Shown here: piece by piece, positions 4,215 through 19,098 of the stretch
Layout of the letters: each line of letters opens with the position of its first letter
Position numbering within the stretch: the stretch's first letter is position 1
From: Actinomycetes bacterium
GTDB lineage: Bacteria > Actinomycetota > Acidimicrobiia > Acidimicrobiales > RAAP-2
Length of the DNA stretch: 54,676 nt
Assembly (NCBI GenBank): GCA_021793395.1
Contig: JAJYSU010000009.1
Location: forward strand, 1 to 54,676
Reading direction: 5' to 3'
Made by a program: the position numbers and the translations under genes
The notes under the pieces: model-generated
The model's input: the letters and a program-made list of their open reading frames with translations, nothing else
Databases searched by the model: none
Told to the model about the DNA's origin: nothing

Positions 4215-5960
<1,746 letters not shown>

Positions 5961-5970
5961 TCAACCCGCC

Positions 5971-6009
5971 CTACTCCAGCAGCAGCCCGTCGTGTTCGCC
6001 GATAGTCAC
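5971..6009 (-). CDS. Leucine leader peptide (attenuation)
   Basis: A 12-codon frame encoding MTIGEHDGLLLE, with three consecutive CTG leucine codons just before the stop and the terminator hairpin 24 nt further on. Ribosome stalling at the Leu codons when Leu-tRNA is scarce would favour the antiterminator and let transcription reach leuA. I chose the GTG at 6009 rather than the adjacent one at 6012 because the -10 box TAAGAT ends exactly 6 nt upstream, which places transcription start on the start codon. The ilv leader has the same geometry. The peptide is too short for ordinary gene calling, but the context is strong. Confidence 0.8.
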   Translation of the reverse strand: MTIGEHDGLLLE

Positions 6010-6015
6010 CACCCC

Positions 6016-6043
6016 ATCTTATCGTCGTTTTGCCGTATGTCGA
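6016..6043 (-). promoter_or_regulatory. Promoter of the leu leader
   Basis: Read on the minus strand, TCGACA (-35, 6038-6043), a 16-bp spacer and TAAGAT (-10, 6016-6021) are followed by 6 nt and the leader GTG. The predicted transcript is leaderless. Confidence 0.6.
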
Positions 6044-6690
6044 GTGGGTACACAGAGCGAGATAGTCGTCACGTGAACGCTCTCTTCAACCTCACGCACC
6101 CCCGCCGCGCGCAAGGCGACCACTCTCGTCTCGCACCCGACGAGATTTCCCCCTCGAGGCTCTCGCCCCGACGGTGCCCACGAGCGGCCACGGCAGGGGC
6201 TGACTCGGGCCAGTCGCGCGACGCGACCACGGCAGCGCCGACTGCGACAGAGCCGGCCGAGACTGAGCCGGCCGGGCAGGGGGAAGACGCGCGATGACTC
6301 GGCGGTCCACCACGAGGTGGTGCTGGGAATCTCACCGGGGGCCGCGCCCCGGGGCTCGACGGCTCCTCCTACGTGCCACGAAGACATGACCCTCTCGCCT
6401 AGGGAGGCCGTGACACGAAGGGGCTGGTACTACCCCGCGTGGCGAGGTACGGACGACCCTCTGTCGCGTCGCGTCGCGCCGTGTCCGTGTCCGTGTCCGC
6501 GTCCGTGTCCGTGACGGTACGTCGCCACGGGCGTCGCTCACGTTCGTGCTGACGTAGCGAGGGGTCCGAGCGCCACTCTCGTACCCACGACGACTCTCGA
6601 CAGCCCCAGTCGCCTGTCCCCGCGAGGGGTGCGGCACGGCGCAACGAGCACGTGAACCACGCGAGGTCCTACGCGGTAAGGTTGATTCTC
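6044..6690. other. Intergenic stretch of about 650 bp without a convincing gene
   Basis: Open frames here are arginine- and proline-rich and resemble no family I know. The stretch is full of short inverted repeats, for example CCACC/GGTGG near 6306-6319 and CCGGGG/CCCCGG near 6337-6355, and it holds the hexanucleotide repeat listed separately. It may be remains of a lost mobile element, but I cannot identify one. Confidence 0.5.
6481..6510. repeat. Hexanucleotide tandem repeat (GTGTCC, 5 units)
   Basis: Units GTGTCC at 6481, 6487, 6493 and 6505, with a GCGTCC variant at 6499. The run is preceded by GTCGC triplication near 6465-6478. It lies between the leu promoter and the small membrane protein gene. 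Confidence 0.8.
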
Positions 6691-13906: not shown

Positions 13907-14941
13907 CTAATCGGTGTCGCCTCCCGAGACCTCGCTCACCTTCTGCTTGCCGGCCGACACGAAGGGCATCATGGCGCGCAGACGCGTGCCGATCGCCTCG
14001 ATCGGGTGCCGCTTGCCCGCGTCGCGCAACTCGCGGTAGCGAGGTCGCCCAATCCGGTTCTCCTCGATCCACTCCGCGGCGAACGTTCCGTCTTGAATCT
14101 CGGTGAGCACCTTCTTCATCTCGTCCTTGACGGCGGAGGTGATAATGCGCGGGCCGCGGGTCAGATCGCCGTACTCGGCGGTATCCGACACGCTGAAGCG
14201 CATACCGGTAATCCCCTCCTCGTACATCAGATCCACAATGAGCTTCAGCTCGTGCAGGCACTCGAAGTACGCACTCTCGGGCTGGTAACCGGCCTCGACC
14301 AGCGTCTCGTAGCCCGCGGTCACGAGAGCGCTCACGCCCCCGCACAGCACCGCCTGCTCACCGAACAGATCCGTCTCGGTCTCTTCGGTAAAGGTGGTCT
14401 CGAGAACACCAGCGCGAGTCGCCCCGATCCCGTGGGCGTAGGCCAGGGCGAGAGCGTGAGCCTGCCCGGTAGCGTCCTGGTGCACGGCGATCAACGAGGG
14501 CACTCCGCCGCCCTCGAGGTAGGTGCGGCGCACGAGGTGACCCGGCCCCTTGGGCGCCACCATCGCCACGTCCACGTCGGCGGGTGGGGTGATGAGGTTG
14601 AAACGGATATTGAAACCGTGCGCGAAGAGCAGGCACTTGCCGGGCGAAAGGTGCGGCGCAATCTCCAGGTCGTAAATCGCCTTCTGTTCGGTGTCGGGCA
14701 GTAGCACCATGATCACGTCGGCCTCCGCGGCCGCGTCGGCGATACTCAGAACCCGCAAACCGGCCTCTTCCGCCTTCAGCACCGAGGACGACTCGGGGCG
14801 AAGCCCCACGCGTACGTCGTAACCACTGTCGTGCAGGTTGAGGGCGTGGGCGTGGCCCTGGGATCCGTAGCCCAACACCGCGATCGTGCGTCCCCGTAGA
14901 ACTTCGGGATCGGCGTCCTTCTCGTAGTACATCGTGGTCAT
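13907..14941 (-). CDS. ilvC: Ketol-acid reductoisomerase (class I)
   Basis: Converts acetolactate or acetohydroxybutyrate to the dihydroxy-acid by Mg-dependent isomerisation and NADPH reduction. The 344-residue length is that of the short class I enzyme. The Rossmann motif [13 protein letters not shown] lies at 24-36, the cofactor-specificity loop [10 protein letters not shown] near 44-53 (Ser residues suggest NADPH), then FAHGFNI with the conserved His, and the all-alpha catalytic domain with [16 protein letters not shown] and [17 protein letters not shown]. It is the last gene of ilvB-ilvN-ilvC, 21 nt after ilvN, and so should be controlled by the attenuator upstream of ilvB. Confidence 0.97.
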
Positions 14942-14962: not shown

Positions 14963-15514
14963 CTAGGCCGTAGCCGTGGCCGTTCGCCCAAGTCTAGGGA
15001 GAGCCACACGACCCGTTCGGTGAAGCTCCACGCCCGCGAACGACTCGAGGGTGCGCTCGAGGTCGTCGCAGGCGCCGGGGGTGCCGGTCAGTGTGACCGT
15101 CACGGCGCTCGCGTCCACGTCGACGATCGCGGCGCCGACGTTCGCGATGGTGTCGAGAAGGCGCGCACGGGTCTCGTGATCGATCACCGGCACCGACGCC
15201 AACAGCAACTCTCGCTCCAACGCGTCACGCGGTGCCAGGTCGCGAATCGCCACCACGTTGACCAACTTGTCCAGCTGGCCCACGATCTGATCGATCGGGG
15301 CCGACTCGGCGTCCACCACAATGGTCACGCGCGAGAACCGAGCATCGCTCTCGGCGGGTGCGACCGCGAGCGAGTAAATGTTGAATCCTCGTCGCGCGAA
15401 CAGTCCCGCGATGCGCGCCAGGACCCCGGCCTTGTTCTCCACCAGTACCGACAGGATGTGGTGACGCACCGGGGTGTGAACAATCTCCGCGGCGAAGGGC
15501 TCGGGGGGCGTCAT
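14963..15514 (-). CDS. ilvN: Acetolactate synthase small (regulatory) subunit
   Basis: The 183-residue regulatory partner of IlvB. An N-terminal ACT domain (about 15-90: HHILSVLVENKAGVLARIAGLFARR broken by the glycine-rich turn, then FNIYSLAV) binds valine and gives feedback inhibition; the C-terminal half (about 95-175) contacts the catalytic subunit. Its ATG overlaps the ilvB stop by 4 nt (ATGA), indicating translational coupling and equal amounts of the two subunits. ilvC follows after 21 nt. Confidence 0.95.
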   Translation of the reverse strand: MTPPEPFAAEIVHTPVRHHILSVLVENKAGVLARIAGLFARRGFNIYSLAVAPAESDARFSRVTIVVDAESAPIDQIVGQLDKLVNVVAIRDLAPRDALERELLLASVPVIDHETRARLLDTIANVGAAIVDVDASAVTVTLTGTPGACDDLERTLESFAGVELHRTGRVALPRLGRTATATA

Positions 15515-17226
15515 CGCGCACCTCCACGCTGAGAGGGGTGCACCATGATGTCATCGTTGCTCGCTCCCGCCGCCACCATGGGGAACACCTTCTCCGAGGC
15601 ATCGGTACGAAAGTCGATCACCACGGGTACGTCGTTGATGGCGTTAGCCTCGTCGATCACGTCGGCCATCTCCTTGACGTTGGTCGCGCGCAGCCCCACG
15701 CAGCCCATCGCCTCAGCCCATTTCACGTAGTCGGGTAGGTCCGCCGACAGGTAGACCTCACTGTAACGCTCGTCGTAGAACATCTCCTGCCACTGACGCA
15801 CCATTCCGAGGTGAGCGTTGTTAAGGATCGCGACCTTAATGGGAATGTGCTCCGTGCGCGCGGTGACCAACTCCTGGGCGGTCATCTGGAAGCACCCGTC
15901 ACCGTCGATACACCACACCGCCCGATCGGGTCGTCCCACCTTGGCCCCGATCGCCGCGGGGACACCGAAGCCCATGGTGCCGGCACCTCCCGAGTTCACC
16001 CACGTGCGCGGCTCCTCGAAGTGCCAGAACTGCGAGGTCCACATCTGGTGCTGACCCACGCCCGAGGCGACGATCGTGCCCGGCTCGGCGCGCTGCGCGA
16101 TCGCTTCGATGACGTGCTGGGGGCGCAGTGGGCCGTCCTCCACGGGCTCGTCGTAGGTGAGTGGGTACCGCGAACGCCACGCCCGGATCTCGCTCCACCA
16201 CGCGTCAAGTGGGGGCGTCGTGACACCGGCGTCTCGCAGCGCGTCGAGAGCCGTGCGCACGTCCGTCTGCACGGTGACGTCAGCGTGGCGAATCTTGTTG
16301 AACTCCGCCCGGTCGATATCCACGTGGATCACCGACGCGTCCGGCGCGAAAGCGGACACTCGCCCGGTGACCCGATCGTCGAAGCGAGCGCCGAGCACCA
16401 CGAGCAGGTCGCTGCGCTGCAGCGCCGTCACCGCGGGGTAGGTCCCGTGCATTCCGGGCATTCCCAAGTTCTGGTCGTGCGAGTCGGGGAACGCCCCGCG
16501 CGCCATCAGCGTGGTGACAACGGGCATGCGCGTGGCCTCCGCGAAAGCCACGAGTGCCTCCGACGCTCCTGACTTCAGCGTTCCTCCGCCCACGAGAAGC
16601 ACGGGCCGTTCGGCGCGGCTGATCAACTCCACCGCGCGCGCGATCGCGTCCTCGTCCACGTCACGCGTCGGGTGATAACCCGGTAGGTCCAACTCGTCGA
16701 GTGTGACGGGGTACCACCACTCCATCATCGATTGACTCACGTCCTTGGGGACGTCGATAAGCACCGGGCCGGGACGTCCGGTTGTCGCGAGGTGAAACGC
16801 GGCGGCCACCGCCCGCGGGAGCTCCTGCGCGGACTGCACGAGGAAGTTGTGCTTGGTAATTCCCATGGTGATTCCCGTGATGTCACACTCCTGGAAGGCG
16901 TCGGTGCCGATCGACGTCGTGGCCACCTGACCCGTGATCACCACCAGCGGTGTCGAGTCCATGTGGGCGTTGCCGATGGGCGTCACGATGTTGGTCGCCC
17001 CCGGTCCACTGGTGACCATGGCCACGCCGGGACGTCCCGTCGCCAGCGCGTAGCCCTCCGCCATGTGCCCGGCACCCTGCTCGTGGCGAGCCAGAATGTG
17101 TCGGATCGGCGAGTCCAGCAACGGATCGTAGACCGGCAGGATCGCCCCACCGGGCAAACCGAAGATCGTCTCCACGCCCTGCTGCTCCAGGCTCTTGATA
17201 AGTGCTTGCGCTCCGGTGAGTTGCAC
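15511..17226 (-). CDS. ilvB: Acetolactate synthase large (catalytic) subunit
   Basis: Thiamine-diphosphate enzyme that condenses two pyruvates to acetolactate, or pyruvate with 2-oxobutyrate. In this 571-residue form the catalytic Glu49 sits in RHEQGAGHMAEGYA, SGPGATN follows near residue 80, and the ThDP/Mg motif IDGDGCFQMT ends in LNN near 440-465. I choose the GTG at 17226, preceded by GAGAGGG; the longer open frame starts inside the attenuator T-run at 17280. A leader peptide rich in Ile, Leu and Val codons and a terminator lie directly upstream, so expression should respond to charging of these tRNAs. Confidence 0.96.
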   Translation of the reverse strand: MQLTGAQALIKSLEQQGVETIFGLPGGAILPVYDPLLDSPIRHILARHEQGAGHMAEGYALATGRPGVAMVTSGPGATNIVTPIGNAHMDSTPLVVITGQVATTSIGTDAFQECDITGITMGITKHNFLVQSAQELPRAVAAAFHLATTGRPGPVLIDVPKDVSQSMMEWWYPVTLDELDLPGYHPTRDVDEDAIARAVELISRAERPVLLVGGGTLKSGASEALVAFAEATRMPVVTTLMARGAFPDSHDQNLGMPGMHGTYPAVTALQRSDLLVVLGARFDDRVTGRVSAFAPDASVIHVDIDRAEFNKIRHADVTVQTDVRTALDALRDAGVTTPPLDAWWSEIRAWRSRYPLTYDEPVEDGPLRPQHVIEAIAQRAEPGTIVASGVGQHQMWTSQFWHFEEPRTWVNSGGAGTMGFGVPAAIGAKVGRPDRAVWCIDGDGCFQMTAQELVTARTEHIPIKVAILNNAHLGMVRQWQEMFYDERYSEVYLSADLPDYVKWAEAMGCVGLRATNVKEMADVIDEANAINDVPVVIDFRTDASEKVFPMVAAGASNDDIMVHPSQRGGAR

Positions 17227-17283
17227 GGGTCCCTCTCTGCTCTCGTTAGGTACTGCGTGGTTGAGTCGTGGCCTAAACAAAAA

Positions 17284-17307
17284 AGGCCTCCCCTGGTGGG
17301 GAGGCCT
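17284..17307 (-). terminator. ilvBNC attenuator (intrinsic terminator)
   Basis: Stem AGGCCTCCCC/GGGGAGGCCT (10 bp) with loop ACCA, followed on the minus strand by TTTTTTG, 52 nt before the ilvB start. The leader segment GAGGC (within the last sense codons of the leader peptide) can pair with GCCTC of the terminator 5' arm and may form the antiterminator. The first T of the T-run is also the closing base of the stem. Confidence 0.85.
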
Positions 17308-17328
17308 CCGGTGTTCGAGTACGTGCGA

Positions 17329-17379
17329 CTACCGGTGCCTCACTCCTACTACTACCAGAATCAGGGACACCGTCGTCAC
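17329..17379 (-). CDS. Branched-chain leader peptide (attenuation)
   Basis: A 16-codon frame encoding MTTVSLILVVVGVRHR, with one Ile, two Leu and five further Val codons, three of the Val codons consecutive. It ends 21 nt before the terminator stem. This is the expected sensor for ilvBNC attenuation: stalling at Val/Leu/Ile codons should prevent terminator formation. The start GTG is exactly 6 nt downstream of the -10 box TTAGAT, so the ribosome probably loads on the 5' end of the RNA. The arrangement matches that of the leu leader. Confidence 0.85.
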   Translation of the reverse strand: MTTVSLILVVVGVRHR

Positions 17380-17385
17380 ACGTCC

Positions 17386-17415
17386 ATCTAAGCACACCGC
17401 ACCACCATCACACAA
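17386..17415 (-). promoter_or_regulatory. Promoter of the ilv leader
   Basis: On the minus strand TTGTGT (-35, 17410-17415), an 18-bp spacer and TTAGAT (-10, 17386-17391) precede the leader GTG by 6 nt. The -35 just touches the region of the ilvD stop codon at 17419. Confidence 0.6.
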
Positions 17416-17418
17416 GAG

Positions 17419-19098
17419 CTAGCGAGAGGTGACCGCCCCCGTCTCCGCTCCCTGGACCAGTCGGGCGAACTTCTCCAGCACGCCCGTGCTGTAACGCGGC
17501 GTAAACGGGGCCACCTCGCGAGCGCGCTGCTCCAGCACCTCGGGGTCCACCAGCAGGTTGATGGTGTTGCTCATCACGTCGATCTCGATGACGTCACCGT
17601 CCGCCACCAGCGCGATCGGTCCACCGTCGAGTGCTTCCGGGGCCACGTGTCCCACGCAGAAGCCGTGCGTCCCGCCGCTGAAGCGCCCGTCGGTCACCAG
17701 CGCACTGTCGCTCCCGCGTCCCACGCCCTTCATCGCCCCCGTCACCGCCAGCATCTCGCGCATTCCCGGTCCGGATCGCGGCCCCTCGTAGCGGATCACC
17801 ACCACCGTCCGCGGGGCAATCTCCCCGGCCAGGATGGCCGCCATCGCGGCGTCCTCGCCGTCAAAGACACGAGCCGTGCCGGTGAAGTGCAACTCGTCGA
17901 TCCCCGCAACCTTCACCACCGAGCCCTTGGGCGCCAGCGTTCCGCTGAGCACGGCGATGCCACCGCGCTCGTGAAGAGGGTGATCGAGGTCGTGGACGAC
18001 GCGCCCGTCGGGAGCCGCCGCCTGATAGGCCGACAGGCTCTCCTCCAACGTCTGTCCGCTGACCGTCATCGTGTCGCCGTGCACCAGACCATGCTCCAAG
18101 AGGTGCGCGAGCACCACCGGCACACCACCCACGAGGTCGAGATCACTCATGTGGTACTGGCCGTGAGGCTTCATGTCCGCCAGGTGCGGCACGCGTCGCG
18201 CTATCTCGTTGAAATCCTCCAGAGCCAAGGGAACCCGTGCTTCGTGCGCGATGGCCAACAAGTGAAGCACCGCGTTGGTCGAACCCCCGAGCGCCATGAC
18301 CACGGCGATCGCGTTCTCGAACGCGTCGCGCGTCATGATGTCGCGCGCGTTGATGCCCCGGTCGAGGAGGTTGAGGACGGCCCGGCCCGATTCGTAGGCG
18401 TACTGATCGCGGCGGGGGTCGACCGAGGGGACCGACGCACTGCCGAGGAGTGACATTCCGAGCGCCTCGGACACGCTGGCCATCGTGTTCGCCGTGAACA
18501 TTCCCGCGCAACTCCCCTCGCCGGGGCACGCCGCACGCTCAATAGCGCCGAGCTCCTCGTCGCTCATGGCTCCCACCGCGTTGGCCCCGACGGCTTCGAA
18601 GACCGACACCACGTCGAGGGCCTGTCCGTTCAACTCGCCCGGCAAGATGGTTCCACCGTAGAGGAAGACGCTCGGTACATTGAGGCGAGCCGCCGCCATC
18701 AGCATGCCCGGCAGCGACTTGTCGCAGCCCGCGAAGGTCACCATCGCGTCGAAACGCTCGGCGTGCATGACCGTCTCCACGGAATCGGCGATCACCTCAC
18801 GCGAGACCAGTGACGCCCGCATCCCCTCGTGACCCATCGAGATGCCGTCGGATACCGCGATGGTGACAAACTCGAAGGGCACGCCACCCCCGTCGCGCAC
18901 GGCCACCTTCGCGCGTCGCGCCAGGCGGTCGAGGGGAAGGTTGCACGGCGTCACCTCGTTCCAGCTCGTCGCTACGCCGATCTGTGCCTTCACCATGTCG
19001 TCGTCCCCGAGACCCATCGCGCGCAACATCGCGCGCGCCGGTGCTCGGCTCGCGCCGATCGTGACCTCAGAGCTTCGTGGAGTGGGGTGGGGTGCCAT
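17419..19098 (-). CDS. ilvD: Dihydroxy-acid dehydratase
   Basis: Dehydrates 2,3-dihydroxy-isovalerate and -methylvalerate to the keto acids; an iron-sulfur enzyme. The 559-residue protein carries the three cluster cysteines in EVTPCN (near residue 52), GCDKSLPG (near 124) and [16 protein letters not shown] (near 197). This is the arrangement of the actinobacterial/plant [2Fe-2S] type. The C-terminal active-site region [17 protein letters not shown] is near 470. The ATG at 19098 lies 6 nt after a TAGTAT -10 box (19105-19110), suggesting a leaderless transcript. It is upstream of ilvBNC but has its own promoter, and the ilv leader promoter starts immediately after it. Confidence 0.96.

Follow-up and report, generated by a model that had tools for sequence, protein, structure and literature searches.

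A predicted leaderless, ribosome-mediated attenuator ahead of ilvBNC in the Acidimicrobiia and a second leader layout among its relatives

Organization of the ilv locus

The window analyzed here is a stretch of 54,676 nucleotides that forms one contig (C86; JAJYSU010000009.1) of a 2.1-Mb genome assembled in 91 contigs. It carries the following genes of branched-chain amino acid (BCAA) synthesis:

17419..19098, minus strand: ilvD, dihydroxy-acid dehydratase (TIGR00110 of NCBIfam), co-directional with and directly upstream of the leader
15511..17226, minus strand: ilvB, acetolactate synthase large subunit (TIGR00118 and NF005860), start codon GTG at 17226
14963..15514, minus strand: ilvN, acetolactate synthase small subunit (TIGR00119)
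13907..14941, minus strand: ilvC, ketol-acid reductoisomerase (TIGR00465)

The 16 best named relatives of IlvB are 75-85% identical to it and all originate from metagenome genomes. Elsewhere in the window, positions 51-812 of the plus strand match the C-terminal part of an IS607-type TnpB (NF038280, from profile position 187), under the curated cut-off of that family and over that of NF040570.

The gap between ilvD and ilvB contains, on the minus strand, a promoter, a leader of 16 codons and an intrinsic terminator:

17410..17415, minus strand: -35-like hexamer TTGTGT, 3 nt after the ilvD stop codon
17386..17391, minus strand: -10-like hexamer TTAGAT with TGC before it (extended -10-like), backed by positional base frequencies in 86 elements
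17329..17379, minus strand: ilvL leader ORF, with GTG (17379-17377) at the predicted transcription start, 16 codons reading MTTVSLILVVVGVRHR and the stop codon TAG (17331-17329)
17282..17309, minus strand: intrinsic terminator hairpin (segments 3 and 4), GGAGGCCTCCCC-ACCA-GGGGAGGCCTTT, pairing of segments 3 and 4 at z -4.7
17279..17284, minus strand: terminator T-run of six T, read from the sequence

A first-pass annotation of this DNA had described a leader followed by a terminator. Both are present, but the antiterminator, without which the two do not yet make an attenuator, had not been named; it is described below.

Conservation of the element across genomes

The upstream DNA of ilvB was collected from 110 loci, of which 106 remained after four duplicates had been removed. 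A covariance model, R1, was built from 31 of these loci; it consists mostly of sequence, with 8 pairs, and starts at the start codon. R1 matched 88 of the 99 same-genus genomes, our own included (55 of the 59 of good quality), the 31 loci behind the model matching by construction. The 88 elements correspond to 86 distinct ones. All 88 main matches have a start codon, partly by construction, followed by a leader with BCAA codons, so that a short ORF with clustered BCAA codons precedes ilvB in 88 of 88. A pattern search recognized ilvB behind the element in 75 of the 88, and 11 of the 13 others show the N-terminus of IlvB in their translations; among the 13 are also L220, where ilvB resumes past a run of N, and L143, where the contig ends.

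Eleven genomes gave no R1 match. Six of them had no ilvB match at 1e-30, two had only paralogues of 29-30% identity, two had a truncated ilvB and one had a gap of N. The causes of these misses imply that every examined same-genus genome with a readable ilvB 5' region has the element. R1 reaches 16 of the 148 genomes of the order, three of these being in the genus, and therefore does not describe other families.

Six weak secondary R1 matches were also found in the genus, three of which (L217-L219) were dropped. One of these, L219 (G009:C68:470-567), reads TNQVTQFLVVLGTRH without a normal start and is possibly a second or foreign ilv-type leader. In two loci, runs of N break the contig within the attenuator, right after the -10 in L015 and past the leader in L220; such breaks in the assembly may arise at strong terminator hairpins.

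Promoter and leaderless start

TTGTGT and TTAGAT are separated by a spacer of 18 nt, and the distance from TTAGAT to the leader GTG is 6 nt. The earlier remark that the GTG stands exactly 6 nt past the -10, as in the leu leader, agrees with both sites (TTAGAT at ilv; TAAGAT with GTG 6009 at leu). Among the 86 distinct same-genus elements, TTG occurs 31-38 nt upstream of the leader start in 81, versus 624 of 12755 control windows (4.9%). The start codon is GTG in 83 elements and ATG in 3, and the stop codon is TAG in 83. An SD-like 4-mer is found ahead of the leader in 6 of the 86 elements, at the background level (6.3% of windows), but ahead of the ilvB start in 79 of 84.

The association of BCAA-rich ORFs with -10-like hexamers extends to the wider collection. 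A BCAA-rich ORF starting 5-9 nt past such a hexamer was found in 46 of 105 loci versus 7 of 525 shuffles. Outside the 31-locus set, the hexamer was present for 30 of 42 BCAA-rich leaders versus 7.3% of 1498 control starts, to which L051, an artefact string without upstream sequence on its contig, contributes starts. Within the 31-locus set, only 22 loci had an ORF reaching the BCAA threshold, and 13 of these had the hexamer by a loose pattern versus 5.4% of 538; many -10 boxes of the genus, like that of the window, do not fit the hexamer pattern used.

By sequence comparison, the promoter geometry places +1 on the start codon and no Shine-Dalgarno site is present. The predicted transcript start is thus 17379, give or take a base or two, which would make the leader GTG the RNA 5' end. 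Attenuation could also be real with a transcript starting further upstream and a leader that is not leaderless, considering that TTAGAT alone is a weak match to the consensus and that a consensus promoter scan did not report it. However, SD-like sequences are not above background in front of the leaders (6/86), and the -35 and -10 stand at fixed positions relative to the start codon, which makes an upstream start unlikely.

Regulatory codons and the leader peptide

The 16-aa leader with Ile, Leu and clustered Val codons was read correctly in the first-pass annotation; it is MTTVSLILVVVGVRHR on the minus strand, and its central codons are:

17347..17361, minus strand: regulatory codons ATT CTG GTA GTA GTA (Ile7-Leu8-Val9-Val10-Val11), with GTA bias in the leaders

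In the 86 leaders, 207 of 262 Val codons (79%) are GTA, versus 14 of 371 (4%) in nine genes of the window. Similarly, 68 of 80 Ile codons are ATT, versus 45 of 184 in the same nine genes. Among the automatically called leaders from outside the 31-locus set (n = 51), GTA makes up 88 of the 155 Val codons. The 44 tRNA matches of the genome include one tRNA-Val gene each with the anticodons TAC, CAC and GAC. The preference of attenuators for particular codons has been treated theoretically (PMC1183508).

We considered the GTA-GTA-GTA run as a structural constraint and rejected this, as the codon segment has no pairing co-variation; for the same reason, codon supply is the better reading of the run. 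The stretch GTAGTAGTAGG (17345-17355) additionally contains three TAG stops in a different frame, where ribosomes that are out of frame would be halted.

The leader RNA might instead bind a protein or a small molecule, with the ORF not being read as a sensor, as has been proposed for the LEU element of leuA. Such a reading would fit an earlier study, cited in PMC1262725, in which changes of the regulatory codons in the ilvB leader of Streptomyces coelicolor were without effect. A search of the window with Rfam 15, covering T-box, ppGpp and other riboswitches, gave no match at gathering score, and for the region 17200-17450 at a permissive E-value, the matches at the leader all stayed under threshold (best E 0.18) and none was credible. 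The lack of an Rfam family at gathering score, the conservation of the peptide frame, the start and the GTA codons, and the lack of pairing co-variation in the codon segment itself all argue against a binding site, and we consider it very unlikely.

Terminator

The earlier description of a terminator with a T-run ahead of ilvB is borne out: the hairpin (17309-17282) has 9 pairs in a G/C-rich core in addition to A-U and G-U pairs, and the T-run follows at 17284-17279. An intrinsic terminator therefore lies between the leader and ilvB. Four terminator-like sites were listed in the 6-20 kb region, a number that shuffles equal (4.1), the ilv site having 12 pairs versus 5. The minimum free energy of the leader is -53.5 kcal/mol (z -4.9 versus shuffles). 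Across the collection, a terminator-like hairpin within 260 nt of ilvB was found in 74 of 106 loci (L051 and L015, without usable upstream sequence, being scored as misses) versus 6 of 318 dinucleotide shuffles.

Because the hairpin lies downstream of ilvD and read-through from ilvD would encounter it, it could merely end the ilvD transcript as an insulator, with the short ORF being incidental. Yet ilvD and the hairpin are separated, in 86 distinct elements, by a promoter whose geometry is conserved and a start codon whose spacing is fixed; the ORF is BCAA-rich with a GTA bias, and the antiterminator co-varies with a z of -8.0. An insulator is on these grounds highly improbable, and the hairpin is better read as the terminator of an attenuator.

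Competing helices

The RNA of the element contains, in addition to the 3' arm of the terminator (segment 4), three segments that could pair in mutually exclusive ways:

17365..17379, minus strand: segment 1, the RNA 5' end including the start codon, whose partner is the region around the stop codon (fold of -27.1 kcal/mol and co-variation)
17331..17341, minus strand: segment 2, GAGGC-A-CCGGT, the end of the ORF and 5' arm of the antiterminator (segments 2 and 3, z -8.0)
17301..17312, minus strand: segment 3, ACCGG-AG-GCCTC, the antiterminator 3' arm, which shares bases with the terminator 5' arm (fold and co-variation)

The helices were assessed with anchored segments by comparing the duplex energy of a segment and its own partner with that of permuted partners. 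The comparison of 28 segment pairs included 82 of the 86 distinct elements, with 54 to 82 distinct pairs per comparison and the 12-codon leaders left out. Pairing with the own partner reached z < -3 in only four pairs, namely segments 2 and 3 (-8.0), 3 and 4 (-4.7), 1 and 2 (-3.6), and 1 and the spacer that follows the stop codon (-3.4). The remaining 24 pairs ranged from -1.7 to +3.5; as unrelated pairs reached +3.1 and +3.5, an absolute z of about 3 is within the scatter. Shared ancestry is only partly removed from these permutation values and acts alike on all pairs.

With scatter of this size, the better evidence for the 1:2 helix is the comparison of segment 1 with the whole stop region, in which the cognate value was -13.75 and the permuted value -12.55 (sd 0.17, n = 82). 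In permutations among representatives, the 1:2 value was reached in 0 of 10000 (45 representatives with distinct stop regions), and the same was the case for the 2:3 value (0 of 10000; 23 representatives with distinct segment 3). As examples of matched segments, CTGG is matched by CCAG in L009, and L021 has GGCCTCGGT as segment 2 with ACCGAGGCC as segment 3.

The leaders of the 31-locus set were chosen by eye, and in the helix comparison of that set a longer segment was used for L042, whose ORF stops early. Owing to the variable loop, the MAFFT alignment A1 puts the terminator 3' arm in the wrong place; RNAalifold then returned only 8 pairs, and column-wise pair counting was not used.

Antiterminator and terminator are mutually exclusive, and the 1:2 helix, covering the start region, would be an anti-antiterminator. 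A ribosome edge of 15 nt was used in the fold models. A ribosome placed at Ile7 or Val9 lets the antiterminator fold, at -19.7 kcal/mol, while the terminator still lacks its 3' arm. When the third GTA (Val11) occupies the A site, just the outer helix persists (-9.9 kcal/mol) and, under the assumed 15-nt edge, the ribosome hides the portion competing with the terminator, so the regulatory codons should not all work equally. With a ribosome at the stop codon, the antiterminator cannot form in the model, and in the ribosome-free state the start region is paired with segment 2 at -27.1 kcal/mol. When the whole element is present, the terminator is preferred in all five fold states; antitermination must therefore be kinetic, chosen during transcription.

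The helices also bear on the peptide itself. Its core, ILVVVGARRR, recurs across the 86 leaders, as would be expected if the peptide acted as an arrest peptide or as a trans-acting small protein. However, the residues ahead of the BCAA run vary and the tail is absent from the 12-codon leaders (3/86). Moreover, RNA pairing is kept behind the stop codon in L042, where the ORF ends early without the tail and yet the arm GGCGCCGGT is preserved, and, by eye, in L028. We regard an acting peptide as extremely unlikely; the suggested role of the basic tail is in RNA pairing and not in the peptide.

Proposed mechanism

The previous proposal of an Ile/Leu/Val attenuator ahead of ilvBNC finds support in the conservation of the element, the lack of a Shine-Dalgarno site, the bias to rare codons and the helix co-variation. 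We conclude with considerable confidence, on sequence grounds, that the element is a leaderless, ribosome-mediated transcription attenuator of ilvBNC. Sequence comparison establishes the promoter geometry, the missing Shine-Dalgarno site, the leader, the codon bias, the terminator and the co-varying helices; where transcription starts, that the ribosome stalls and which way the operon responds are inferred.

In the proposed mechanism, the leader GTG would be the RNA 5' end, and translation would begin there with no Shine-Dalgarno site. Unless a ribosome is loaded, segment 1 with the start codon would pair with segment 2 and the terminator would form. With an ample supply of charged Ile, Leu and Val tRNAs, the ribosome would translate ATT CTG GTA GTA GTA, reach the TAG and cover segment 2, resulting in termination before ilvB. 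When charging falls short, above all that of the tRNA for the rare GTA, the ribosome would wait at about codons 7-9. Segment 2 would then pair with ACCGG-AG-GCCTC and take up the 5' arm of the terminator, and ilvBNC would be transcribed.

The leuA leader and a second layout

The window contains another BCAA leader, located ahead of leuA:

5930-6045, minus strand: leuA leader, GTG at 6009, MTIGEHDGLLLE, -10-like TAAGAT at 6 nt
4215-5924, minus strand: leuA, downstream of the leuA leader

Among the best 30 of 59 same-genus leuA matches (L221-L250), the leuA leader was called in 27, of which 25 carry ELLL close to their end; L223 and L246, two of the three uncalled loci, show a similar ORF by eye. 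Its stop codon is directly followed by a hairpin of its own and then by the terminator. A hairpin with z < -2 in the spacer between stop and terminator was present in 27 of 27 leuA leaders (from the best 30 of 59 loci) versus 3 of 85 ilv leaders of the genus, and the ilv leader thus has a hairpin arrangement different from that of the leuA leader. The first-pass annotation had attributed the same design to both leaders. This is true of the promoter spacing, the leaderless start and the terminator, but not of the RNA switch: the leu leader has a hairpin after the stop and no antiterminator was detected in it, whereas the 3' end of the ilv ORF is an antiterminator arm.

The arrangement of the leuA leader was also seen ahead of ilvB outside the genus. 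In the ilvB leaders L050-L113 from outside the genus, the stop codon is directly followed by a GC-rich hairpin and a terminator, often with a CCTCCC/GGGAGG core. The 51 automatically called leaders outside the 31-locus set end 0-2 codons past the last BCAA codon. Of the testable ilvB leaders not belonging to the 31-locus set, 40 of 45 show this second layout. These 45 were called automatically, on the conditions of four or more BCAA in 7, a good -10 score and a core of the form CCTC[CG]C, and some calls may be wrong. Outside the genus alignment here denotes those 75 of the 106 loci that the 31-locus set does not contain; L015 and L028 of the genus are among them, L028 being one of the 45.

In the set of 45, the hairpin (z -13.3) and the terminator (z -9.8) co-vary. 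An antiterminator was sought there among the other 13 segment pairs, which did not co-vary (strongest -1.3), and among ten further combinations, which did not either (strongest -2.2, P3 versus the SD region). In the set of 27 leuA leaders, the hairpin co-varies with a z of -4.9 and the nearly invariant terminator shows no co-variation (-0.7); the search for an antiterminator in this set gave -2.7 for P3 versus the terminator 5' arm and -2.1 for the leader start versus the terminator 3' arm, neither of which we counted. In G120, from another genus of the same family, the leader MANRGREVVPI is of the second type by inspection, with a spacer z of only -1.7.

In the second layout, a ribosome standing on the final codons or on the stop would hold the hairpin open, and its release would let the hairpin form. 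It is conceivable, although we put this forward tentatively and at slightly less than even odds in our own judgment, that the Acidimicrobiia use leaderless BCAA leaders in two RNA machines: a classical one in the ilvB leader of the genus, with helices 1:2, 2:3 and 3:4, and a sensor of ribosome position without an antiterminator in most ilvB leaders of other families and in the leuA leader of the genus, so that the genus would use a different machine for each gene. The second layout without a detectable antiterminator is exposed by the contrast with the neighbors, and it is the part worth following.

Relation to known attenuators

On the sequence-testable features that define them, all of which it shows, the element joins the actinobacterial ilvB attenuators. 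Candidate ilvB leaders with terminators were described in 2005 for Corynebacterium, Mycobacterium and Streptomyces (PMC1262725). In Corynebacterium, uORF control has been reported (PMC10272879), and attenuation of C. glutamicum ilvBNC has been modelled with mutants, including a leaderless leader, an anti-antiterminator and the regulatory codons GUA and CUU (PMC11857589). The three-hairpin model of that operon, with its ilvB-II motif, shares with the present element a leaderless BCAA leader with GUA and Leu control codons (PMC11857589, PMC10272879), a hairpin 1 over the start region, and an antiterminator overlapping the base of the terminator via a shared GCC (PMC11857589). The element of the genus differs in belonging to a different class, in its leader MTT..ILVVVGARRR and in its shared stretch, which is GCCTC.

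Mycobacterium tuberculosis ilvB1 likewise has a BCAA uORF with GUA and mutually exclusive terminator and antiterminator structures, which were tested experimentally there; GUA is described as the regulatory codon, and a change of LVVI to AAAA is reported to result in low expression that does not respond to inhibitor (PMC13236596). It differs in its leader of 166 nt (PMC13236596). The mycobacterial cysteine attenuators cited in the same article also use a leaderless sORF as the sensor, but they rely on cysteine codons and are termed translation attenuation (PMC13236596). The LEU element before actinobacterial leuA shares a leader with a Leu run ahead of leuA with the leuA leader of the genus; it is, however, described as a pseudoknot with the leuA SD (PMC1262725), whereas the genus leuA leader has a stop-proximal hairpin and an intrinsic terminator.

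In the open-access literature, we found no paper on leader-peptide attenuation in Acidimicrobi*, and a search for Acidimicrobi* together with leaderless gave nothing on leader attenuation by title. Our results extend leaderless ilvB attenuation probably to the class Acidimicrobiia, with comparative evidence for the helices and for the kept rare GTA.

The ilvL of Streptomyces lividans, MRTRILVLGKRVG, located before ilvBHC, has in common with the present leader a leaderless start, an ILV core followed by basic residues, and a Rho-independent terminator (PMC8079986). Streptomyces differs in that a codon requirement was not seen in S. coelicolor, according to PMC1262725. In our phylum sample, the leader of one genome (L264) is exactly the S. 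lividans ilvL. The leaders of the distant phylum genomes L261, L264 and L271 contain LVVIGQRV, ILVLGKRVG and VVVLTKRV, respectively, that is, an ILV core followed by G/T-K/Q-R, and resemble ILVVVGARRR. Judging from such sequences, a common origin of the actinobacterial ilvL leaders is possible.
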